Shown: piece after piece, positions 8,434 to 62,737 of the stretch
Position numbering within the stretch: position 1 is the stretch's first letter
How the letters are laid out: each line of letters begins with the position of its first letter
Source: Ignavibacteriae bacterium HGW-Ignavibacteriae-1
GTDB lineage: Bacteria; Bacteroidota; Ignavibacteria; Kapaibacteriales; UBA2268
Length of the DNA: 64,000 bases
Direction of reading: 5' to 3'
NCBI GenBank assembly: GCA_002839825.1
Contig: PGYU01000006.1
Location: forward strand, 62,001-126,000
Program-made: the position numbers and the translations under genes
The notes under the pieces: generated by a model
The model's database searches: none
Told to the model about the DNA's origin: nothing
What the model saw: only the letters and a program-made list of their open reading frames with translations

Positions 8434-9885
8434 ATGGAAAATATTATACTCATTATTTACTTCGTTTCTCTAAGCATTTTGTTTATGTTCGGTATTCACG
8501 GCGTGATTTTGCTTTATTATTATAGCAAAACACATGCTGCAAGTCATCCGGATGAGAAAATGCCTGAAACGTTTCCTCTTGTCACAATCCAATTACCTAT
8601 TTTCAACGAAAAATACGTTGTCGCAAGGCTAATTAAATCAATTTGTGAAATAGAATACCCCAAAGACAGACTTGAAATCCAAGTTCTCGATGATTCTACT
8701 GACAATACAACCGAAATCGCGCAAGATTTAGTCAAACAGTATGCCGCTAAGGGATACGATATTGTATATGTCAACAGAAAAAGTCGCAATGGATTCAAGG
8801 CAGGTGCGCTCAAATACGGGCTCGAATTTGCTAAGGGAGAATATGTTGCTATTTTTGATGCAGACTTTGTCCCTAATAGTGACTTTCTGCTCAAAACCAT
8901 CCCTCACTTTAATAATCCCGAAATTGGAATGGTCCAAACTAGATGGGAACATTTAAACGAAGAATATTCCTTCTTGACAAAGGCTCAAGCTCTCGCTTTA
9001 GATGGTCACTTTGTGATTGAACAACAGGTGCGGAACAAAGCCGGATTCTTCATCAATTTCAACGGTACAGCCGGTGTTTGGCGACGCGAATGTATTTATG
9101 ACGCCGGAAATTGGCAAGCTGATACACTCACTGAGGACCTTGACTTGAGCTATCGTGCTCAAATTAAGGGTTGGAAATTCCGTTTCCTCAATGATGTAAC
9201 TTCGCCTGCTGAATTACCCGCTGACATTAATGCGCTCAAGACGCAGCAATTCCGTTGGACGAAGGGTGCAGTCGAAACTGCAATCAAGATGTTGCCCAAA
9301 GTTTTCAAATCCAATCTTTCGCTGAAAGTGAAGTTTGAATGCTTTGTTCATCTAACATCAAATATTGTGTTTCCGTTCATCATTGTAGTTGCATTGCTCA
9401 ATATTCCACTTGTTGTTATCAAAAACACAATTGGCGGATTTGACGAATATTATTCGATGATGTCAATTTTTGTGCTTGCTTCGGTATCTACATTTTTGTT
9501 TTATACTTATGCCCAAAAAGCTTTGCATTTGGATTGGAGAAATCGTTTATTGCTATTTCCGGTCTTTCTTGCCGGAAGTATGGGATTTGCGGTAAATAAT
9601 TCAAAAGCAGTTATCGAGGCTCTGATAGGCAAAAAATCTGCATTTGCACGTACACCAAAGGAAGGCATCGTTGGGATGCAGAAATCTGACTCAGCCAAAT
9701 CATACTTCCAACGCAAAATTAGTGGCACTGTAATCATTGAATTACTTCTTGCGCTATATTATGTGGCAGGAATCGTTATTTCGGCAGCATATCTCGAAAT
9801 TGCAGCGATTCCATTCCAACTACTCTTTTTATTTGGATTCGGCACGGTAGGATTCCTATCTTTGAGACATGCGCTTGCCAAGTAG
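8434..9885 (+). CDS. Membrane glycosyltransferase, family 2 (cellulose-synthase-like)
   Basis: A 483-residue processive-type GT2 enzyme. One N-terminal membrane helix (about 5-28) is followed by the cytosolic GT-A domain with the conserved aspartates of LDDSTD and FDADFVP, the acidic TEDLDLSYRA motif and the QQFRW motif (QxxRW), then several C-terminal membrane helices. Such enzymes polymerise or transfer sugars from nucleotide sugars across the inner membrane; relatives include glucomannan and cellulose synthases. Product cannot be told. The gene ends at a strong terminator (9909-9940). Confidence 0.9.
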   Translation: MENIILIIYFVSLSILFMFGIHGVILLYYYSKTHAASHPDEKMPETFPLVTIQLPIFNEKYVVARLIKSICEIEYPKDRLEIQVLDDSTDNTTEIAQDLVKQYAAKGYDIVYVNRKSRNGFKAGALKYGLEFAKGEYVAIFDADFVPNSDFLLKTIPHFNNPEIGMVQTRWEHLNEEYSFLTKAQALALDGHFVIEQQVRNKAGFFINFNGTAGVWRRECIYDAGNWQADTLTEDLDLSYRAQIKGWKFRFLNDVTSPAELPADINALKTQQFRWTKGAVETAIKMLPKVFKSNLSLKVKFECFVHLTSNIVFPFIIVVALLNIPLVVIKNTIGGFDEYYSMMSIFVLASVSTFLFYTYAQKALHLDWRNRLLLFPVFLAGSMGFAVNNSKAVIEALIGKKSAFARTPKEGIVGMQKSDSAKSYFQRKISGTVIIELLLALYYVAGIVISAAYLEIAAIPFQLLFLFGFGTVGFLSLRHALAK

Positions 9886-47052: not shown

Positions 47053-48003
47053 ATGAAGAAGAAAAGAGCAAAACCGCAAAGAGTGCGTACCGACAAGAGT
47101 CGGCACATAGAATATGACTATCATTTGCCGGTATTGCTTGAAGTAAGTGTTGACAATTTGGTTCAAAATGCTAATGGTATTTATGTAGATGGTACATTAG
47201 GTGGCGGCGGGCATGCAGAACTGATATTATCGAAATTAGATTTCGGGGGGAGTCTGATAGCGTTCGATAAAGACAGAAATGCGGTAGAACACTGCGAGAG
47301 GAAGTTAAAGCATTACGTTACAAAGGATGCTGCTCCTAAACTTACTATCTATAATGAGTGCTATAGCAATGTCTGCGAGAAATCAGCAGTTTGGGGGAAA
47401 TTCAGTGGTTTATTGCTTGACTTGGGCGTTTCCTCGAAGCAACTTGATACTGAATCCGCCGGGCTGAGTTACAGAGTTGACTCGCCTCTCGACATGCGGT
47501 TCGGTAACCACGGCAAAACTGCCGAAGAACTACTGAAGACGGCTGATGTTGCAGATTTGACCCATGTTCTTCGCTTTTATGGCGAGGAACCAAATTCAGC
47601 TAGAATTGCGCGACGTATCGTCGAAATGCGTCGCGTGATTCCTCTGAATTCAACATTCGAACTACGCGATATTATCACCTCAATTGTTCCCGTTCCACTA
47701 CACTACAAGACCCTTTCACGTGTTTTCCAAGCTATTCGCATCGCCGTAAACGATGAATTGAATATTTTGGAAAGAACCCTGAATTGCATCGTAGATAATA
47801 TGCGTCCCGGCGGAAGAATCGTAGTGATTTCCTATCATTCGCTCGAAGATAGAATCGTCAAGCATTTCATGCGTACTAATGCCACCAAAGAAAATCAAAG
47901 ATTAGCACTCATTACAAAGAAACCAATTATCCCCACTGTAGAAGAAATCGCCACTAATCCCAGAGCACGCAGCGCCAAGTTAAGAGTTGCCGAGGTAGTG
48001 TGA
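47053..48003 (+). CDS. rsmH: 16S rRNA (cytosine(1402)-N(4))-methyltransferase
   Basis: A 316-residue RsmH that methylates C1402 of 16S rRNA in the decoding centre. Visible: SAM motif VDGTLGGGGHAELIL, FDKD, LLDLGVSSKQLD, SPLDMRFG and ISYHSLEDRIVKHFM. It adjoins mraZ without a gap. ftsL does not follow; a short copy of its own last 22 bases appears 1.9 kb downstream. Confidence 0.97.
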   Translation: MKKKRAKPQRVRTDKSRHIEYDYHLPVLLEVSVDNLVQNANGIYVDGTLGGGGHAELILSKLDFGGSLIAFDKDRNAVEHCERKLKHYVTKDAAPKLTIYNECYSNVCEKSAVWGKFSGLLLDLGVSSKQLDTESAGLSYRVDSPLDMRFGNHGKTAEELLKTADVADLTHVLRFYGEEPNSARIARRIVEMRRVIPLNSTFELRDIITSIVPVPLHYKTLSRVFQAIRIAVNDELNILERTLNCIVDNMRPGGRIVVISYHSLEDRIVKHFMRTNATKENQRLALITKKPIIPTVEEIATNPRARSAKLRVAEVV

Positions 48004-48150
48004 GTGAGGGACGCTCCAAATGACAGTGAATCGTAGAAAGATACAATACAAACAATATTGTTTGAGTAGAGTGGGCGAATATATAAGGACGACTTAGGTA
48101 AACATGTCAAAATTTACATTTATATATTAAGATACAAAAAGGCAGAACTA

Positions 48151-49107
48151 ATGTACGGATTGAAAGAATTAAAGTCGCATATAATAATTGAAGAACATTC
48201 AGTTGAATGCCCTGTTAAAGGTTGTTCAATAAAAGTTGAAAGACAACGACAATCCTTTAAGAGAGAGCAAAAATTCCAATGCTCTGAACATAAAATCTAT
48301 ATATCACCATCAACATTTGAGTATCAAACAGCAAAAGAAAACCTGTTATGGTATGATAATTCCGACAAAATTCTTTTTAATAAAATTTTAGAAGTAAAAA
48401 GAGAATGCCGTATTGCAAGGGAAAATAGTGAAGATGCATTAACTTGGAATGTCATGAGGTTTCTTGACAGACAAAAACTTCTTCCAAGTTTTCTTTCGCA
48501 ATTATCTCGTAGGGAAATACAAGAAGCGGAAATGATTTTGTGGTCGTATTCGCCAACTGCAAAATCTAGCTGGTCATTGCTCAATCAAGCAAGGATTGAA
48601 TTTGGAGAAACGGTAGCTAGAGGGTCCGAACCTGACATAATTATATTGACCGATAAAGTTCTTTATTTTATAGAAGCCAAACTGACTTCAAAAAACAAAA
48701 CCAAGCCAAGTAACTTGCAAAACAGAAAAAAATACGAGATAGGTGGCAATAAATGGTTTCAACATATTTTTAAATCAGACTTTGAAACCCTTACTGTAAG
48801 AGAGCAGCAGTACGAACTTATGCGTTACTGGTTACTAGGAAGTTGGTTGGCAAAGCAAATCGGAATTGATTTTGAGTTTTACAGCCTTGTTATCCAATCC
48901 AGAGAAAAAGCATTAGAAGCTGAATTTGACAAAAATATAATTGAAACTCCCGAAAGAAAGTTTTCGCGTTTGACTTGGGAACAGATTTATGATTTTGTTA
49001 TTACAATACCCGAAAGCCAAGAAAAACAGAAAATAACAGAATATTTTATCAATAAAACCATTGGATATGGTTCTAATGGGAAAATCATAAAAGCGTTTGA
49101 ATTATAG
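48151..49107 (+). CDS. PD-(D/E)XK nuclease-like protein with zinc-ribbon-like N-terminus
   Basis: A 318-residue cytosolic protein of unknown family. C20, C25, C44 and H47 (CPVKGC then CSEH) can form a zinc site. A conserved-looking glutamate (WNVMRFLDRQKLLPSF region) precedes the core GSEPDIIILTDKVLYFIEAKL, a clear PD-ExK signature (about residues 158-176, with D162, E174, K176 approximately). This fold is shared by restriction, repair and phage-defence nucleases. It heads a two-gene unit with the membrane protein 12 bases downstream. The target cannot be told; no methyltransferase is adjacent, so a classical restriction role is unlikely. Confidence 0.68.
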   Translation: MYGLKELKSHIIIEEHSVECPVKGCSIKVERQRQSFKREQKFQCSEHKIYISPSTFEYQTAKENLLWYDNSDKILFNKILEVKRECRIARENSEDALTWNVMRFLDRQKLLPSFLSQLSRREIQEAEMILWSYSPTAKSSWSLLNQARIEFGETVARGSEPDIIILTDKVLYFIEAKLTSKNKTKPSNLQNRKKYEIGGNKWFQHIFKSDFETLTVREQQYELMRYWLLGSWLAKQIGIDFEFYSLVIQSREKALEAEFDKNIIETPERKFSRLTWEQIYDFVITIPESQEKQKITEYFINKTIGYGSNGKIIKAFEL

Positions 49108-49119
49108 AGGCAAACAGAA

Positions 49120-49839
49120 ATGAAAGATGTAAAGTACAATGACCAACTTGAAAAAATACTAACTGCCATATTTGGTAGTATCGGAACATTAGCAATATTT
49201 ATTAATTTACATTTAAAAGGTTATCAAAGTGAATATATCTTTGATGCGATTAAAGATATCGCGGGATTAGTAGTTGTAATTGCAGTATTTTTAGTCGCAA
49301 ATAAACTATTTAGAAAAGGTGAAAAATTTGACTTCGCTATATTATTTGAAATTCATTTGAAAAATTGGATTGAACAAAACGATTATCTCGTATGTGAAAA
49401 TTTTGCGGAAGAAGGCAAAGGGAAGTACTCAAAAAGATATTGTTCAATGGTTATTGAACATTCAAATATTGTAACAAGAAAAAAATATGCTAAGGACGCT
49501 ACACAAAATAAAGAAAAAGGCGCTTTCGTATATCTTCCATATAAAGATGAAACTGGGAATATGAAACATGAATTTGAATTCAGGTTTAACGAGCGAACAT
49601 TTGAAAGACAAAATATCTATAAGACAGATAATGGAGAAGTAAACTTGAGAGCCATTATTGAACAGTTTGCGAACAGAATTGATGATAATTTCAAAAGCAT
49701 TGGTGTTTCAGTTAAAGCAAATCCATCAAATAAAACAATAGCTGTTTCATTTGAAGATATGGAACAATCTGAAGAAAATGCCAAAAAATTGATAGACCTT
49801 GTTGAATTTGTTAAAACTTTAACTCTGGCTTTGGCATGA
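49120..49839 (+). CDS. Two-TM membrane protein with cytosolic domain, partner of the nuclease
   Basis: A 239-residue protein with two N-terminal membrane helices (TAIFGSIGTLAIFINLHL, about 14-31, and IAGLVVVIAVFLVANKLF, about 46-63) and a cytosolic domain of about 170 residues (FDFAILFEIHLKNWIEQNDY, HEFEFRFNERTFERQNIYKT). Family not recognised. An AGAGG site lies ahead of its start, and the gap to the nuclease gene is 12 bases, so the two are cotranslated. Two-helix anchors with a soluble sensor or effector part are common in defence systems; the role is inference. Confidence 0.58.
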   Translation: MKDVKYNDQLEKILTAIFGSIGTLAIFINLHLKGYQSEYIFDAIKDIAGLVVVIAVFLVANKLFRKGEKFDFAILFEIHLKNWIEQNDYLVCENFAEEGKGKYSKRYCSMVIEHSNIVTRKKYAKDATQNKEKGAFVYLPYKDETGNMKHEFEFRFNERTFERQNIYKTDNGEVNLRAIIEQFANRIDDNFKSIGVSVKANPSNKTIAVSFEDMEQSEENAKKLIDLVEFVKTLTLALA

Positions 49840-49862
49840 TTCTCAGGGAGGTACACTTCCCC

Positions 49863-49887
49863 TCAGTCAGTTGTAACAACTGACTGA
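49863..49887. repeat. Perfect 11-bp hairpin after the two-gene cassette
   Basis: TCAGTCAGTTG (49863-49873), loop TAA, CAACTGACTGA (49877-49887). No T run, so not a normal terminator. A related but diverged hairpin (loop CAGTTGTTACA) lies at 58446-58471. Confidence 0.75.
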
Positions 49888-49921
49888 ACATAAAGAGTTG
49901 CCGAAGTGTTGTGATTGGGGC

Positions 49922-52164: not shown

Positions 52165-53499
52165 ATGAAGTTAGTAAATATTCACAAACATTTCTACATC
52201 CTCATCATTCTCATGTTGGGAGTGGATACGGTTCAAGCACAAGTTTGGACCTTGAATCAATGTATTGAGTCAGCACAAGAGAACAATAAGAGCCTTCAAA
52301 TAGGTAAAAACAATATGGCTATTAGCGAGTTCCGGCATAAGGAATCCAAAGCTAATTTGCTACCCAAAGTTAACGCCAATGTTGATTACAAATACTTTAC
52401 AAATCTGCCTTACCAACTGATGCCTCTATCAACCTTTAATCCGGCAGCAGAAGAAGGTCAATTTAGAGAGGCTCAGTTTGGTGTTCCGCATAACATCAAT
52501 GCGAATCTGCAATTTTCGATGATATTGTATAATCCACAAGTTTATGGTTCTATTAAGGCAACGAAAGTAGCTACGGAATTAGCAGAATTGCAATTTCGAA
52601 AATCCGAAGAGCAAATCTATTTTGAAATCTCGAATCTCTATTACAACGCACAAATTTTGCATCATCAAATGATTTTTATTGACAGCAATCTCGTGAATTC
52701 AGAAAGGCTTTTGATAAATATGCAATTGCTCAAAGAGCAACTTTTAGCCAAAGGTACAGATGTGGGTAAAGTGGAATTGCAGGTGGCACAATTATCAACA
52801 CAGAAAGAAATTGTATTAAGTAAATACGACCAAGTCCTGAACGCTTTGAAATTCGCTATAGGTATTCCAATCGAGCAAAATCTTCAGATTGAACCGGAAA
52901 TTGCATTCCAACAAAGTACTGAGTACAACAAGTCAATTACTTTGGATATGCAAATCGTGAAGACTCAAAACAATTTATTAGCCAATGAGATAAGCACATT
53001 GAATAAATCGAGATTTTTACCGTCCCTAAATCTCATAGCTTCTTATGGAGCCACCGGTTTTGGATATGATAAGCAGCCCAATAGTTTCTTGGATTTTTAC
53101 CCAATCGCTTTTGCAGGCATTCAACTTTCTTATCCTATATTCAACGGAACAGTAACGAAACAAAAAATAAATCAGAAAAAGATTGAAGTACAAAACAATG
53201 AGCTTCAATTTGGCTTAATCACTGACCAGAACAATATGCAGACAGAAAATGCAAAATCGCAAATAAAAGTTGCACATTACTCTATTGAAAAGACAAAAGA
53301 GCAAATCAAACTTGCCACTGAGATTTACCACCAAACAATATTACAGCAGAAACAGGGGTTGGCAAACCTCACGGATGTGATTTTAGCTGACAATAGTTTA
53401 CGTGAAGCACAACAATCATACTTGTCTTCAGTAATAGATTATCTGAAAGCAGATTTAGAACTGAAAAAAGTAAGCGGAAATTTATCAATTAAGAATTAA
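52165..53499 (+). CDS. Outer-membrane efflux protein, TolC family
   Basis: A 444-residue TolC-type channel: signal peptide (about 1-26), then two long helical/hairpin repeats (WTLNQCIESAQENNKSLQIG, LNLIASYGATGFGYDKQPNS). It forms the outer-membrane exit duct for the RND pump. The stop codon lies inside the first units of a heptamer repeat array; the last four residues (SIKN) are repeat-encoded, as in the next gene. Confidence 0.93.
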   Translation: MKLVNIHKHFYILIILMLGVDTVQAQVWTLNQCIESAQENNKSLQIGKNNMAISEFRHKESKANLLPKVNANVDYKYFTNLPYQLMPLSTFNPAAEEGQFREAQFGVPHNINANLQFSMILYNPQVYGSIKATKVATELAELQFRKSEEQIYFEISNLYYNAQILHHQMIFIDSNLVNSERLLINMQLLKEQLLAKGTDVGKVELQVAQLSTQKEIVLSKYDQVLNALKFAIGIPIEQNLQIEPEIAFQQSTEYNKSITLDMQIVKTQNNLLANEISTLNKSRFLPSLNLIASYGATGFGYDKQPNSFLDFYPIAFAGIQLSYPIFNGTVTKQKINQKKIEVQNNELQFGLITDQNNMQTENAKSQIKVAHYSIEKTKEQIKLATEIYHQTILQQKQGLANLTDVILADNSLREAQQSYLSSVIDYLKADLELKKVSGNLSIKN

Positions 53500-53726
53500 G
53501 AATTGAGAATTAAGAATTAAGAATTAAGAATTAAGAATTGAGAATTAAGAATTAAGAATTAAGAATGAAGAATTGAGAATTGAGAGTAGAGAGTTAAGAA
53601 TTGAGAATTAAGAATTAAGAATTAAGAATTAAGAGTTAAGAATTAAGAATTAAGAGTTAAGAATTAAGAATTAAGAATTAAGAATGAAGAATGAAGAATT
53701 GAGAATTGTGAGTAGAGAGTTAAGTA
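53487..53726 (+). repeat. Degenerate tandem array of 7-bp units (AAGAATT), array 1
   Basis: About 33 units of AAGAATT with variants GAGAATT, AAGAATG, AAGAGTT and GAGAGTT fill nearly the whole gap between the TolC-like and adaptor genes. The array begins within the last codons of the upstream gene. Confidence 0.93.
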
Positions 53727-53751
53727 TTATCAATAATAAATTAATAATAAC

Positions 53752-54810
53752 ATGAATTGGAAAAGAATAATTGGATTGTTGTTGGGGGCGGCATTGATAG
53801 CCTTCGTAGTCATTAAGTTGATATCCAACAAGGAAGTTGCTCAAGATAGAGTTTATCAATACGATAAAGAGCAAGCAATCAATGTTCGGGTAGATTCTAT
53901 TCGATATGAATTTATCGGGGATGAATTGAGTTATAGCGGGACTTTCGAGCCCAATAAGGAATCGAAATTGAGCTCTGAATTACAGGGCAAAATCAATGCG
54001 ATTTTTGTTGATGTTGGAAGCTATGTCAAAAAGGGGCAGTCGTTAATACAGTTAGATAATTCTCTATTAAAACTACAACTACAGACTGTTGAAGTGCAGA
54101 TTGAAGGATTAGAAGCAGACTTTGAACGCTATCAAATTTTAGTTAAAGCAGATGCTATTCAAGGTGTCCAATTAGAAAAAGCTGAATTAGGATTGAAATC
54201 CGCAAAAGTCCAAAAGGCTACATTATTGGAACAAATAAGCAAAACCATCATCAAAGCACCTTTTGACGGCGTGATAACAGCAAAACTGAGTGAAGTAGGT
54301 TCATTCGCAGCGCCCGGAGTACCCTTGCTTCAGTTAACAGACATTTCAACTTTGAAATTCACTGTAAATATTCCGGAAAGTGCATTATCAAATTTCAAAT
54401 TGAATAATACTTACTCTATCAAAGCAGATGTTTACCCCGACTTTGCTCTTGATGCTTCGCTTATCATGGTAGGCAGTAAGGCAAATATGGGTAGTAGTTT
54501 TCCGGTTCAGTTTAAAGTGAAAAACACTTCCGATTTCAAAATTAAATCCGGAATGTTTGGAAAAGCATTTTTATCGAACGAAAATCAAGAAAAAGGCATT
54601 ATGATTCCAGCTTCTGCTATCGTAGGTACTTCAAATCAGCAACAAGTATATTTGGTAAAAGACAATAAGGCTGTACTGCAGAACATAAGCGTTTCAGAAA
54701 GAATTCAGAATAAAGCGCTTATATCGAGTGGTTTGAAAGCAGGCGATGTAATCATTACAAATGGATTCATCAATCTATATGACGGCGCGAATGTTTCAAT
54801 TAAGAATTAA
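53752..54810 (+). CDS. RND efflux periplasmic adaptor subunit
   Basis: A 352-residue membrane-fusion protein: N-terminal membrane anchor (IGLLLGAALIAFVVIKLI, about 5-22), lipoyl-like halves (GKINAIFVDVGSYVKKGQSL, and IIKAPFDGVITAKLSEVGSF), a helical hairpin between them, then beta-barrel and membrane-proximal domains (KIKSGMFGKAFL, GLKAGDVIITNGFINLYDGA). It links the RND pump to the outer-membrane channel. It ends SIKN-stop within the second heptamer array. Confidence 0.93.
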   Translation: MNWKRIIGLLLGAALIAFVVIKLISNKEVAQDRVYQYDKEQAINVRVDSIRYEFIGDELSYSGTFEPNKESKLSSELQGKINAIFVDVGSYVKKGQSLIQLDNSLLKLQLQTVEVQIEGLEADFERYQILVKADAIQGVQLEKAELGLKSAKVQKATLLEQISKTIIKAPFDGVITAKLSEVGSFAAPGVPLLQLTDISTLKFTVNIPESALSNFKLNNTYSIKADVYPDFALDASLIMVGSKANMGSSFPVQFKVKNTSDFKIKSGMFGKAFLSNENQEKGIMIPASAIVGTSNQQQVYLVKDNKAVLQNISVSERIQNKALISSGLKAGDVIITNGFINLYDGANVSIKN

Positions 54811-54887
54811 GAATTAAGAATTAAGAATTAAGAATTAAGAATTAAGAATTAAGAATTGAGAATTGAGAATTGAGAATTAAGAATTGT
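54798..54887 (+). repeat. Tandem array of AAGAATT units, array 2
   Basis: About 12 units, nearly pure AAGAATT followed by three GAGAATT, starting in the final codons of the adaptor gene and ending 26 bases before the four-helix-bundle gene. Confidence 0.93.
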
Positions 54888-54912
54888 CAAATAAAAATCA
54901 AGAAATAATAAT

Positions 54913-55272
54913 ATGAAAACGAACAATATCATTCAAGACAAATCATTTGCTTTTGCTATCAGAATTGTCAATCTCTACAAATACTTATTGGCTGAAAAGA
55001 AAGAATTTGTTTTATCAAAACAGTTGCTTCGTAGTGGAACAAGTATTGGAGCTAATGTGGAAGAAACTATTGGAGGTCAATCTAAAAAAGACTTTATAGC
55101 CAAAATTTCTATAGCATACAAAGAAGCGATAGAAACAAAGTATTGGGTGAAATTACTAAAAGCCACTCAATATTTAGAAGAAAAAGAAGCTGATAGTATT
55201 CTGCATGATGTAGAAGAATTATGTAAAATTCTATCTTCTATCCTCCTGTCCTCAAAGGAAGCTAATTCTTAA
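54913..55272 (+). CDS. Four-helix-bundle protein (23S rRNA intervening-sequence type)
   Basis: A 119-residue all-helical protein of the S23/IVP family: SFAFAIRIVNLYKYLLAEKK, LSKQLLRSGTSIGANVEETI, FIAKISIAYKEAIETKYWVK. Members occur in 23S rRNA insertions and as stand-alone genes; bAvd of diversity-generating retroelements has the same fold. Molecular role unknown. It is an intruder between adaptor and pump genes, bounded by heptamer arrays in opposite orientation, and its own stop codon is formed by the right-hand array. Confidence 0.88.
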   Translation: MKTNNIIQDKSFAFAIRIVNLYKYLLAEKKEFVLSKQLLRSGTSIGANVEETIGGQSKKDFIAKISIAYKEAIETKYWVKLLKATQYLEEKEADSILHDVEELCKILSSILLSSKEANS

Positions 55273-58471: not shown

Positions 58472-58483
58472 TGTAGATGTCTC

Positions 58484-58517
58484 GAACAGGATTATCAATA
58501 TTACAAGATGGACATGA
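58484..58517 (-). repeat. 35-bp dispersed repeat, copy B (inverted)
   Basis: Read on the minus strand it matches the copies at 50854 and 62671 with three mismatches to the latter. It separates the efflux operon from the restriction genes. Confidence 0.82.
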
Positions 58518-58611
58518 TTTTCATACGATTTTGAAAAAGCTAATCGGAAAATGAGGAGAAAATTGTATTTTGCAAACTGAAATATGGATAAAATGAGAAT
58601 AAAAATATAAA

Positions 58612-61600
58612 ATGAGTTTGTTTCAAAAATCTGTTGAGAAAAAGTATTTAAATGAGTTAGATTCCATTCTGATTGACAAAAAATTCAAGGAATTTCAAGA
58701 CTATTTTGGAAATCCTGTAATTCAAGAGAATATCAGAAATTCCAAGGAAGAACAGTACCAAGAAGGATTCTTACGGGAACTGTTTGTTTCGATATTAGGA
58801 TATACTCTCAATCCGCATCCTAATTTCAACCTGACAACGGAACTAAAAAACATTGCCAATAGCAAAAAAGCTGACGGCGCGATATTGAAAGGCGAAGATG
58901 CTATTGCTGTGATTGAATTGAAAGGAACTGACACTACTGACTTAGACAAAATTGAGACACAAGCGTTCGGATACAAAAACCATCACCCGAAATGTGTTTA
59001 TGTGGTAACTTCAAATTTTGAAAAACTCCGTTTTTACATTCAAAATGCAGTTGACCACATAGACTTTGATTTATTCAGGTTATCTCGAGAGCAATTTTCC
59101 TTGATGTGGCTTTGTTTGGCAAAAGAAAATTTGCTAAATGGATTAGCTCTAAAAATCAAAGAATCGTCGCTTTTGCAGGAAGAAAATATTACCAAAAAGT
59201 TATATGCCGATTACTCAAAATTCCGTGAAGCGATATACAACAACCTGATTAAGAACAATCCTGAAACCGACAAACTATTACTATTCAAGAAAACCCAGAA
59301 GTTACTTGACCGTTTTCTGTTTGTCTTTTTCGCAGAAGACAGATTGTTGCTACCGCCAAATTCTATAAGCGAGATTGTAAAACAATGGAAAACTTTGAGG
59401 GACGAATTAGACGAATATGTGCCGCTATACGACCGATTCAAGAAGTATTTCGGGTACATGAACACAGGCTACAAAGGCAAAAAATATGATATTTACGCTT
59501 ACAATGGCGGACTTTTTGCAACTGATGAAATATTAGATAACATCTCGATTGACGATGAAATCCTTCACTATCATACCCTAACTTTAAGTCAGTACGATTT
59601 TGAAACCGATGTTGATGTCAATATTCTTGGTCATATTTTCGAACACTCTCTGGGCGAAATAGAAAACGTACAAGCCGAAATTAAAGGTGAGAAAATTGAC
59701 AACCAAAAGACCAAACGCAAGAAAGACGGCATATTCTACACGCCAAAATACATCACCAAGTACATTGTAGAAAATACCATTGGAAAGCTTTGCGAAGAAA
59801 AACGCATTTCACTTGACATCGTTGATGAAGAATACGCCAAGGAACGTAAGAACCGGAAAAGAGAAGCGATAAAAGAGCTTGACGATAAATTAACCGAATA
59901 TCGCAACTGGCTCTTAACTTTAACGATTCTCGACCCTGCTTGTGGTTCGGGAGCCTTCTTGAATCAGGCTTTAGACTTTTTGATTAACGAGCATCGCAAA
60001 ATTGACGAATTACGGGCACAGCTTTTTGGTGGTGGTTTGGTGTTCTCCGACATAACAAGCGACATACTCGAAAACAACATTTACGGTGTGGACATCAACG
60101 AGGAATCAGTTGAAATTGCCAAACTTTCTCTATGGCTCAGAACTGCACAAAAAGGACGTAAATTAAACTCACTGAGCAACAACATCAAATGCGGGAACTC
60201 GCTGATAGACGACCCCGAAGTGGCAGGTGATAAAGCTTTCAATTGGCAGAATGAGTTTCCTGATATTTTTGCAAATGGTGGCTTTGATGTGGTCATTGGC
60301 AATCCGCCGTATGTAGATAATAGAGGATTTGATAAAACTGATTTAGATTATCTTTTTAAGAATTATCCAAATTCATTCCAAAAGTCAGGTACTGATAAGT
60401 ATAAGACTACAAAATTGAATCTAATTGCTCCTTTTATTGAGCTTAATTCTAAAATTCTAAGGGAAAATGGATTTACTAGTTTTATATTTCATAAGAATAT
60501 TTTTAAAACAAATGGATATACTTCTATACGAAAATATATTTTGCAGAATTTCTTCATTGATACTCTTACAGATTGGGGTGCTGGTCAATTTCAGGATGTT
60601 ATTGCAGAAACTGCAACTTTTACCTTGATGATGGAAAAAAAATTCAATGAAAACATTAAAATTGAATTTTATAATCTTGATACCAAGATTGATGAAAATA
60701 ACCAATCTCAAGAAGTATTCCTAAATAGCTATGAATATATTTTTGGTATTTATGCTTCAAAAATGGACAGGACAATACTGCAAAAAATTGAAAAGTCTGA
60801 CCTAATACTAGGGAATTTAGTAAATATAAATAATGGCATTGTAACAGGTAATGATAAGAAGTATATATCAAAAATTAGAATTGATCAAACCTATAAAAAA
60901 GCAATACGAGGAAGAGACATTAGTCGTTACAGTGTTTTAAAAGAGGAAGAATACATCCTATATAATAAGGACAAGCTTCTAAGAGCAAGGGATGAAAATA
61001 TCTTTCTAAAGAATGAAAAATTGATTATGCAGATGATTAACATAAATTTCATTTTAACTTATGACAATACTCAATTCTATAATCTTGGTACAACTTATGC
61101 CATAACACTAAAAAATGGAGGTAATCTTTTTAACATACTAGGTATATTAAACAGTAAATTAGTCAGCTATTATTATAAAAAGAAGTATACAAACGATTCA
61201 TCCTTGACAAATGCTATTTCAACTCAAAATTTGAACACAATTCCAATTCCATCTCATATTAAAGATGACTTTCATACTTTCGTTTTATCGATGTTAAATC
61301 TAAATAGTCATTTCTCAATAATTTCAAACAATTTTTTGGCATACCTAAAAACTAAATTCAATATAAATAAAATTGGAAGAAAGTTAGAATCATGGTATAA
61401 GTTAGATTTTTCAGTTTTTATAGAAGAGATCCATAAAATTGTCAAAAATTCGAATGGTGTAAAGCTTTCGAAATCGGATGAAATGGAATGGATGGAACTG
61501 TTTGAAGCTAAAAAAGCAGAAGCCCAAGCTCTTCAATCCGAAATCGAAAAAACAGACAAAGAAATAGACCTCATGGTTTATCAGCTTTACGAATTGACAG

Positions 61601-61635
61601 AAGATGAAATAAGAATTGTAGAGGAGTCAAATTGA
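58612..61635 (+). CDS. Single-chain restriction-modification enzyme (type IIG/Eco57I-like)
   Basis: A 1007-residue protein combining nuclease, methyltransferase and target recognition. The N-terminal nuclease part shows KADGAILKGEDAIAVIELKG (about 84-104), a PD-ExK-type site. The N6-adenine methyltransferase has motif I DPACGSGAFLNQA (about 440) and motif IV NPPYVD (about 563). The C-terminal half holds the recognition region, less conserved and more AT-rich than the rest, and a coiled-coil tail. It should methylate host sites and cut unmodified DNA. No separate specificity subunit is seen. Bordered by inverted copies of the 35-bp repeat. Confidence 0.92.
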   Translation: MSLFQKSVEKKYLNELDSILIDKKFKEFQDYFGNPVIQENIRNSKEEQYQEGFLRELFVSILGYTLNPHPNFNLTTELKNIANSKKADGAILKGEDAIAVIELKGTDTTDLDKIETQAFGYKNHHPKCVYVVTSNFEKLRFYIQNAVDHIDFDLFRLSREQFSLMWLCLAKENLLNGLALKIKESSLLQEENITKKLYADYSKFREAIYNNLIKNNPETDKLLLFKKTQKLLDRFLFVFFAEDRLLLPPNSISEIVKQWKTLRDELDEYVPLYDRFKKYFGYMNTGYKGKKYDIYAYNGGLFATDEILDNISIDDEILHYHTLTLSQYDFETDVDVNILGHIFEHSLGEIENVQAEIKGEKIDNQKTKRKKDGIFYTPKYITKYIVENTIGKLCEEKRISLDIVDEEYAKERKNRKREAIKELDDKLTEYRNWLLTLTILDPACGSGAFLNQALDFLINEHRKIDELRAQLFGGGLVFSDITSDILENNIYGVDINEESVEIAKLSLWLRTAQKGRKLNSLSNNIKCGNSLIDDPEVAGDKAFNWQNEFPDIFANGGFDVVIGNPPYVDNRGFDKTDLDYLFKNYPNSFQKSGTDKYKTTKLNLIAPFIELNSKILRENGFTSFIFHKNIFKTNGYTSIRKYILQNFFIDTLTDWGAGQFQDVIAETATFTLMMEKKFNENIKIEFYNLDTKIDENNQSQEVFLNSYEYIFGIYASKMDRTILQKIEKSDLILGNLVNINNGIVTGNDKKYISKIRIDQTYKKAIRGRDISRYSVLKEEEYILYNKDKLLRARDENIFLKNEKLIMQMININFILTYDNTQFYNLGTTYAITLKNGGNLFNILGILNSKLVSYYYKKKYTNDSSLTNAISTQNLNTIPIPSHIKDDFHTFVLSMLNLNSHFSIISNNFLAYLKTKFNINKIGRKLESWYKLDFSVFIEEIHKIVKNSNGVKLSKSDEMEWMELFEAKKAEAQALQSEIEKTDKEIDLMVYQLYELTEDEIRIVEESN

Positions 61636-61691
61636 TATGGCAGATTTGAATATACCACCTTTTTTCTCAAGAGTGTTACCTATATAACATT

Positions 61692-62615
61692 ATGACTTCT
61701 CATTTTAATCCATATGATCCATGCCCATGTGAAAGCGGCAACAAGGCAAAGTTTTGTTGCTTGACTATAAAATCATGGAATAAGAAACCAAAACTTATAA
61801 AACCCACAGAAGCAATTTCTAACTTTTCACACAACAAGTGTTACGCTCAAAAAACTATAAACTGTTCAACAAAAATCTCACGTGAACATTATTTTTCAAA
61901 TAATATCCTAAAGAATCTTGAAGTTAATAATAAGGTTAAAATTATTGGATTACCTTGGCAAGAGAAGGAGACATTCAATCTCATTCCAAAAAGCAATTTA
62001 GTTTCAAATATTTTATGTACAACTCATAATACATTATTGTCACCATTTGACGATGAAATGGGACGATTTCATAGAATAATTATTAAGTTTGACGAGGATT
62101 TTAATTTAGACAATCCCAAAAATGATTTATCAGTATTCTGTGGTGAAGACTTAGAAAAGTGGATGCTTAAAACCGCTTGTAATTTTATAGCTTCAAATCA
62201 AATTTATAGAGGTGGAGTTAAAAGTAATTATATGCTAAAAGACGAATATATTGATATTCTTTTCAATGACAAACCATTTCCTGAAAATTGGGGGATGTAT
62301 TTCAAAATACCAGAGAACAAACCAATTCAAAAATTTAAATCGATATCTTTTCGCTCTATTACTGGAAACAATGAACTACAAGCAGTTGAATTTCTTATTA
62401 ACAACTTTAAGTTTTATTTGGTTCTTTGTCAACCCGCTAATCCAAGTTTATTCGGGAAGTATCGACCGAGAGGTATGCAATTTTACGAAGGGGATATTAA
62501 AAAAACTATTGAAATTTGTTGGCAAGACGAAAAATACAATGAAGGAATCTTTCTTGAACGTAAAGGAACAGCTAGAGGGGAGCCTAAGGAATGGGACGAT
62601 TACTTGAAAAAATAA
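61692..62615 (+). CDS. SEC-C/HNH-like protein next to the restriction enzyme
   Basis: A 307-residue protein. The N-terminus has a SEC-C-type zinc motif (C11, C13, C22, C23 in DPCPCESGNKAKFCC). Next comes an HNH-like site: C50, C58, SREH (E65, H66) and C109/H112 in LCTTHN with LLSPFDDE after it. The C-terminal half is unassigned. HNH-type nucleases with zinc knuckles are frequent in defence loci; nuclease activity here is inference. 56 bases after the restriction gene on the same strand, low GC like that gene's 3' half. Confidence 0.65.
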   Translation: MTSHFNPYDPCPCESGNKAKFCCLTIKSWNKKPKLIKPTEAISNFSHNKCYAQKTINCSTKISREHYFSNNILKNLEVNNKVKIIGLPWQEKETFNLIPKSNLVSNILCTTHNTLLSPFDDEMGRFHRIIIKFDEDFNLDNPKNDLSVFCGEDLEKWMLKTACNFIASNQIYRGGVKSNYMLKDEYIDILFNDKPFPENWGMYFKIPENKPIQKFKSISFRSITGNNELQAVEFLINNFKFYLVLCQPANPSLFGKYRPRGMQFYEGDIKKTIEICWQDEKYNEGIFLERKGTARGEPKEWDDYLKK

Positions 62616-62670
62616 AGGTTGAGGAACTAACATACCTTCTTTCCGTATTCAGCAAAATGGTATGTAATAA

Positions 62671-62705
62671 TCCTGTCCATCCTGTAATCTTGATAATCCT
62701 GTTCA
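62671..62705 (+). repeat. 35-bp dispersed repeat, copy C
   Basis: Begins TCCTGTCCATCCTGTAATCT and ends TTGATAATCCTGTTCA. Closes the accessory region; ahcY and its terminator follow. Confidence 0.88.
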
Positions 62706-62737
62706 AGAAACTCCTTTTCAAAACATACCCCCACAAA

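Follow-up and report, generated by a model that had tools for sequence, protein, structure and literature searches.

Architecture of the locus

The window, a stretch of 64,000 nt from contig PGYU01000006.1 of Ignavibacteriae bacterium HGW-Ignavibacteriae-1 (assembly GCA_002839825.1), carries downstream of genes read as mraZ and rsmH two open reading frames, designated here gene A and gene B, which are both confirmed as real and follow each other at a distance of 12 nt (Table 1). The inverted repeat beyond gene B probably constitutes the end of the transcript; considered as an attC site, the hairpin folds well (z -3.67) but is devoid of core sites and has been rejected as such. The GC content of A (0.333) and B (0.296) is low compared with rsmH (0.440); this is not peculiar to the inserted piece, since the subsequent fic and TetR-type genes are equally low (0.346 and 0.352, respectively).

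Table 1. Features of the gene A and gene B locus (positions refer to the window)
Feature	Position	Strand	Remarks
Gene A	48151..49107	+	318 aa; zinc-like module and PD-(D/E)XK nuclease domain
Gene B	49120..49839	+	239 aa; two predicted N-terminal membrane helices and unassigned soluble part
Perfect 12-nt inverted repeat, hairpin	49863..49887		3' of B; no T-run seen
Inserted piece, missing from congener G002 (empty site)	48005..49893		1889 nt; congener G001 also without
Left copy of imperfect direct repeat (rsmH 3' end)	47982..48009	+	82% identical to right copy
Right copy of direct repeat	49893..49920	+	21 nt identical to rsmH 3' end of G002
psyrA (DprA-family antitoxin) relic, last 56 nt of gene	48013..48068	+	89% identical to G002 gene, E 8.8e-15

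Gene A and its predicted nuclease fold

The zinc-like N-terminus and the PD-ExK core that the initial annotation had recognized in A hold up upon comparison with its relatives. In an alignment of 16 rows, consisting of the window copy and the copies at loci L004-L018, the zinc-like CX4C...CX2H residues C20, C25, C44 and H47 and equally the PD-ExK residues E94, D162, E175 and K177, which by analogy with the PD-(D/E)XK superfamily would be the catalytic ones, are invariant in all 16 copies. The structural model built from this alignment is confident (mean pLDDT 94.0, pTM 0.90), and its top neighbours in VIA-align are PD-(D/E)XK nucleases, with Upx (Z 6.3), the small subunit of BspD6I (6.2), Can2 (5.7), EcoT38I and FokI (5.2 each) and McrC (4.9). 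As all these Z values stay below 8, membership in the superfamily is supported by the model without assignment to a particular family. A shares with these restriction-type nucleases the core of about 124-140 aligned residues and keeps the invariant E, D, E and K, but differs from them by the additional zinc-like module, which is predicted to bind zinc, and by the lack of an adjoining methyltransferase partner in the window. A is thus most likely a metal-dependent DNA endonuclease, with cleavage predicted from fold and residues.

The Foldseek matches of the A model all stayed above E 0.001, sequence comparison with solved structures gave no significant match (best E 0.26), and Pfam, PADLOC, NCBIfam and PHROGs gave weak matches only for the window protein. 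Among these, assignment to NERD (PF08378) was rejected, with 17.6 bits versus a gathering cut-off of 22.1, and a PADLOC Specificity_I match over a short C-terminal stretch (E 9.8e-5) was taken as chance. Within the family, when E values up to 1 are admitted, the Pfam model REase-ARP (PF22558) matches part of 3 of the 16 proteins over the nuclease core (best 5.5e-7), and PADLOC PDC-M15A models give partial core matches in 7/16 and 3/16 members (best 4.3e-6); where seen, the PDC-M15A match is confined to the core, such as residues 90-180 in the L016 protein, and the window protein itself matches neither REase-ARP nor PDC-M15A. A literature search under the name REase-ARP retrieved no paper.

Insertion into a variable region

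Comparison with two congeneric genomes defines the piece that carries A and B. In G002, the fic region comes immediately after rsmH (97% protein identity), and the window is 1889 nt longer; in G001, the insertion is equally absent and other DNA follows rsmH. The 28-nt direct repeat that flanks the piece reached a score of 31 versus a maximum of 29 among 60 single-base shuffles. In this test, the flanks of L009, L015 and the window scored above every shuffle, L006 reached a p-value of 0.017 and the other 12 loci showed nothing at 0.05. Of the two repeat copies, only the right one agrees with G002, over a stretch of 21 nt, so that the incoming end of the piece could be the left or the right.

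The initial annotation had stated that no toxin-antitoxin partner is present next to the genes, which has to be corrected, as a psyrA gene has left its 3' end as a relic 82 nt upstream of A. In G002, the corresponding DprA-family gene and its neighbour are recognized by PADLOC as PsyrA (E 1.8e-79) and PsyrT (E 4.4e-261). What links the locus to PsyrTA is this antitoxin-gene relic, with the intact pair residing in the congener; A and B themselves match neither PsyrT nor PsyrA in PADLOC. The intact psyrTA pair of G002 is located between efflux genes and a gene read as sahH, an interval which in the window harbours a type IIG restriction-modification gene together with a small gene whose beginning, by eye, resembles SEC-C. 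The correction extends to this type IIG gene, located about 9 kb downstream. The differing cargo of G002 and the window indicates that the region is variable in the genus and holds defence genes. The two versions of this exchangeable defence cargo correspond to window positions 58473-62722 and to positions 5174-8159 of L049.

Distribution and phylogeny of gene A

Scanning of contigs with a two-row A alignment identified 15 relatives, which are 43-70% identical, and the survey of 297 genomes of the phylum of L010 added, besides L010 itself and two partial matches, one further full-length copy (L063 in G746), so that 16 other A loci are considered; the distant partial relatives L064 (E 8.8e-10) and L065 (E 3.8e-4) have been left out of all A-locus counts. 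With the window genome included, A is present in one of 60 relatives and in two of 395 genomes of the phylum. The bacterial hosts, from several phyla, include Flavobacteriaceae, Bacteroidetes, two Paludibacter, Smithella, a deltaproteobacterium, Cloacimonadota, Ignavibacteria, WOR-3 and Chthoniobacterales, and two hosts are archaeal, namely Methanocellaceae and Thorarchaeota. The distribution of A is thus patchy and crosses the domains. In a 17-row tree the Methanocellaceae copy is nested among copies from bacteria (97/97); that of the window groups with those of Bacteroidota (100/100). G309, a genome of the same class as the window, has an A copy, apparently L013, that is only 48% identical to the window copy. 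Relatives of A were found neither in phages nor in plasmids or viral contigs. A behaves as a solitary mobile gene.

Possible cassette context

At several loci the flanks of A resemble those of integron cassettes. A GTT-anchored core site upstream and its complement downstream of A were sought with the attC consensus, with p-values derived from 1000 Markov-resampled flanks and uncorrected for the 15 homologous loci. Core-site halves bracket A at three of these loci, L004 (10/10 bases, p 0.009), L005 (10/10, p 0.002) and L013 (9/10, p 0.012); two others are borderline (L011, p 0.057; L010, p 0.076) and 10 of the 15 do not pass. The L063 copy shows no core-site pair of 7/9 or better. By-eye readings of attC sites were not borne out at L009 (p 0.345) and stayed borderline at L011. 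At L005, an additional 9/9 core-site pair spans 129 nt directly after A; many 8/9 pairs and a 9/9 pair occur in L013 distant from A, and such background pairs make any single pair weak evidence. Bottom-strand folding of putative attC sites gave a mixed picture, with z values of -3.32 for L008, -1.58 for L005, -1.42 for L013 (55 nt only), -0.97 for L011 and +0.38 for L009. Just 3' of A at L008 (positions 9048-9087), a perfect 9-nt inverted pair, TTGCCTAAC/GTTAGGCAA, is of the kind found at attC core sites, but it is short and no matching site lies upstream. At L016 (5400-7406), A is situated between a fragment resembling the 3' end of a DUF4238 gene (by eye) and a full DUF4238 gene.

Among the 15 homologue genomes, which are drafts, an integron integrase above the curated TIGR02249 cut-off of 265 bits was found in two, with 439 bits in the L013 genome and 489 bits in the L017 genome. 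The window copy was rejected as an integron cassette, as the core-site p-values are 0.741 for A and 0.591 for A with B, and its genome is without an integron integrase over the cut-off. Precedents for cassette-borne defence exist: PMC12409362 describes integron cassettes with antiphage activity (citing Darracq 2025, Kieffer 2025 and Getz 2025), reported for at least 16 of 179 V. cholerae cassettes and for 9 of 57 tested V. parahaemolyticus cassettes, and restriction and methylation are listed among archaeal cassette functions in PMC9668308. With these precedents, a defence role for a cassette gene is reasonable. The A family resembles the antiphage cassettes and archaeal integrons described therein by the core-site halves at three loci, by its archaeal copies and by the predicted restriction-type function; unlike those, A in the window lacks attC.

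An apparent cassette array at the 16S rRNA gene of Thorarchaeota

In Thorarchaeota AB_25 (L015), A starts 278 nt past the end of an SSU rRNA gene (Rfam RF01959) and lies between the copies, 98% identical, of a direct repeat of 112 nt. A query composed of the 16S end and the repeat matches 22 of 29 genomes of the Thorarchaeota group, the own genome included, and a repeat core of 13-14 bases yields 73 matches in 19 of the 29 genomes versus 7 matches for a reversed-pattern control. Most core matches (65 of 73) reside on 17 contigs with at least two copies, and on 16 of these contigs all copies point in one direction. The 3' end of the 16S rRNA gene is seen in 12 genomes, with a core copy within about 150 nt in five (G443, G808, G813, G815 and G819) and not in seven; full or partial SSU genes were confirmed by Rfam for L015, L076 and L078 only. 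In five repeat copies, a piece of the 16S 3' end is included that is 20-34 nt long. The core of attC sites is GTTRRRY, and the sequence TGTTGAGC, invariant in 15 of 15 aligned Thorarchaeota repeats, fits this core; G443 shows no TIGR02249 match. The apparent array loci of AB_25 and its relatives (positions 1-1540 of L015, and L074, L075, L076, L077 and L078) have repeats of about 200 nt, which recur at intervals of roughly 0.5-4 kb, for the most part point the same way and enclose unrelated genes; some of these genes are toxin-antitoxin- and acetyltransferase-like, by eye only.

Apparently, A is thus in AB_25 the first gene of a cassette array that begins at the 3' end of the 16S rRNA. Integrons have been described as enriched in Asgard archaea in PMC9668308, the main text of which contains neither '16S' nor 'rRNA', and a limited literature search gave no description of a 16S-anchored array among the matches listed. 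If not already described, such an array would extend the capture of genes in integron fashion to a new setting.

Defence genes in the neighbourhood

Strong PADLOC matches adjoin A at three of the 16 other loci, a raw count without a background rate. At L013, A is neighboured by UzuA (2.1e-67) and then a type I methyltransferase, at L016 by a type II REase (5.6e-69) and at L063 by AbiU (9.5e-38; Pfam AIPR 6.9e-39) with PDC-M14A (5.4e-17) downstream. At the last locus (L063 2-3442, G746), A is positioned 5 nt after the AIPR/AbiU gene and 28 nt before the PDC-M14A-like gene, a possible three-gene defence operon. Four genes near A at L008 and L010 had no strong PADLOC match, and 20 neighbours at twelve other loci (L007 left out) gave no convincing defence match. 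Weak or generic matches concern an HTH-ankyrin-type gene at L006 (4.5e-15), a radical-SAM-type gene at L011 (8.1e-15) and an HNH-type gene at L017 (3.7e-5); a Mem_03 match at L011 (E 0.0055) was taken as chance.

Proposed role and competing readings

Taken together, the chances are about even, in our estimation, that A is a stand-alone restriction-like antiphage nuclease which has moved around as a cassette of one gene, while B is a local passenger, whereby cleavage and defence would be the predicted activities. The metal-dependent PD-(D/E)XK cutting domain would be fused to a small module that binds zinc and probably serves DNA contact or folding. With no methyltransferase dedicated to it, the protein would most likely cut foreign DNA, such as that of invading phage. 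As such a partner is lacking, A would need a target feature absent from host DNA or activation triggered by infection; candidate mechanisms for sparing of the host are modified-base specificity, structure specificity or activation upon infection. Spread of the single-gene cassette would have occurred between integron-type core-site halves in some hosts, as first gene of the array at the 16S rRNA 3' end in Thorarchaeota AB_25 and, in the window, inside the inserted piece that follows rsmH, where the region is variable and holds defence genes. This explanation is based on the fold and the invariant residues, the patchy distribution and the nested archaeal copy, on the core-site halves at L004, L005 and L013 with an integrase in the L013 genome, on the Thorarchaeota array, and on the empty site in G002, the psyrA relic and the defence matches at L013, L016 and L063. 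Against it speak the scanned neighbours, which at most loci are not defence genes, the window copy without attC core sites in a genome without integrase over the cut-off, the uncorrected core-site p-values and mixed folding of the putative attC sites, and the absence of A relatives from the phages, plasmids and viral contigs searched. Of the role in defence proposed for the locus in the initial annotation, the nuclease assignment is borne out by the fold prediction, and the defence role of A is plausible, as the gene is mobile, patchy and cross-domain with defence matches adjoining at three of 16 other loci; the two-gene module is not upheld.

A wider version of this reading is rather doubtful, though worth stating. 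A would found a family of self-sufficient zinc-bearing PD-(D/E)XK antiphage nucleases, moving as single-gene cassettes across bacteria and archaea; the array sites of Thorarchaeota would derive from the 16S 3' end and its trailer, and the first cassette, A in AB_25, could use the rRNA promoter, an integron analogue on an rRNA gene.

An orphan endonuclease, type II-like or of the homing type, that spreads mainly for itself with little use to the host is in our view an unlikely reading of A. A single gene of patchy occurrence whose sites are unrelated, with local sequence directly repeated at L009, L015 and in the window, can be seen in this light, but the cassette-type flanks at several loci offer another route of spreading and no common target is visible among the A sites. 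The conservation of all motif residues fits selection for activity and not specifically a selfish role.

Slightly less probable still is the membrane-linked two-component nuclease defence system that the initial annotation had envisaged, with this genome as the sole sampled example. The arrangement of A and B on one strand, 12 nt apart and within one insertion, favours this proposal and makes cotranscription probable. The two membrane helices predicted for B show up as hydrophobic 19-mers at two places, around residues 10-31 and 39-65, and as two N-terminal helices of a single-sequence model of low confidence (pLDDT 56.5), which had only middling histidine-kinase-type structural matches with Z up to 4.9. 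Against the two-component system speaks that the pair is not conserved. A is present at 16 other loci, and B at none of the 15 informative ones with at least 1.4 kb downstream (L004, with 119 nt downstream, was left out); tblastn of B against L001-L018 and L062-L065 recovered B itself and chance matches of E 1.4 or worse. B was found in one of 395 genomes of the phylum and one of 149 relatives, in both cases its own genome, and in none of the plasmids, viral contigs and phages; Pfam, PADLOC, NCBIfam and PHROGs gave nothing significant for B, and no alternative recurrent partner was noticed in the ORF tables of the A loci. A and B are therefore probably not a conserved pair in the sampled loci, and B is best read as a local passenger or, at the utmost, an accessory specific to this host. 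That A has no conserved partner cautions against taking neighbour genes in one genome as a system.

A role of A as a DNA repair or other housekeeping nuclease is very improbable, as its rarity among relatives, its cross-domain tree and its cassette context speak against it, although many scanned neighbours are not defence genes and repair nucleases, among them that of P. abyssi (Z 5.3) and EndoMS (Z 4.8), are in the VIA list.

Should the stand-alone antiphage nuclease be confirmed, one small gene without a methyltransferase partner would serve bacteria and archaea alike as a portable restriction factor, and it would become testable how A spares its host. The window locus in itself is modest; the mobility of the A family and the Thorarchaeota array are more interesting. 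A further feature of the region, common to the window and G002, is the presence of intergenic short tandem repeats with 7 nt offsets around the efflux genes, located in the window at about 53487-53756 and 54796-54931.
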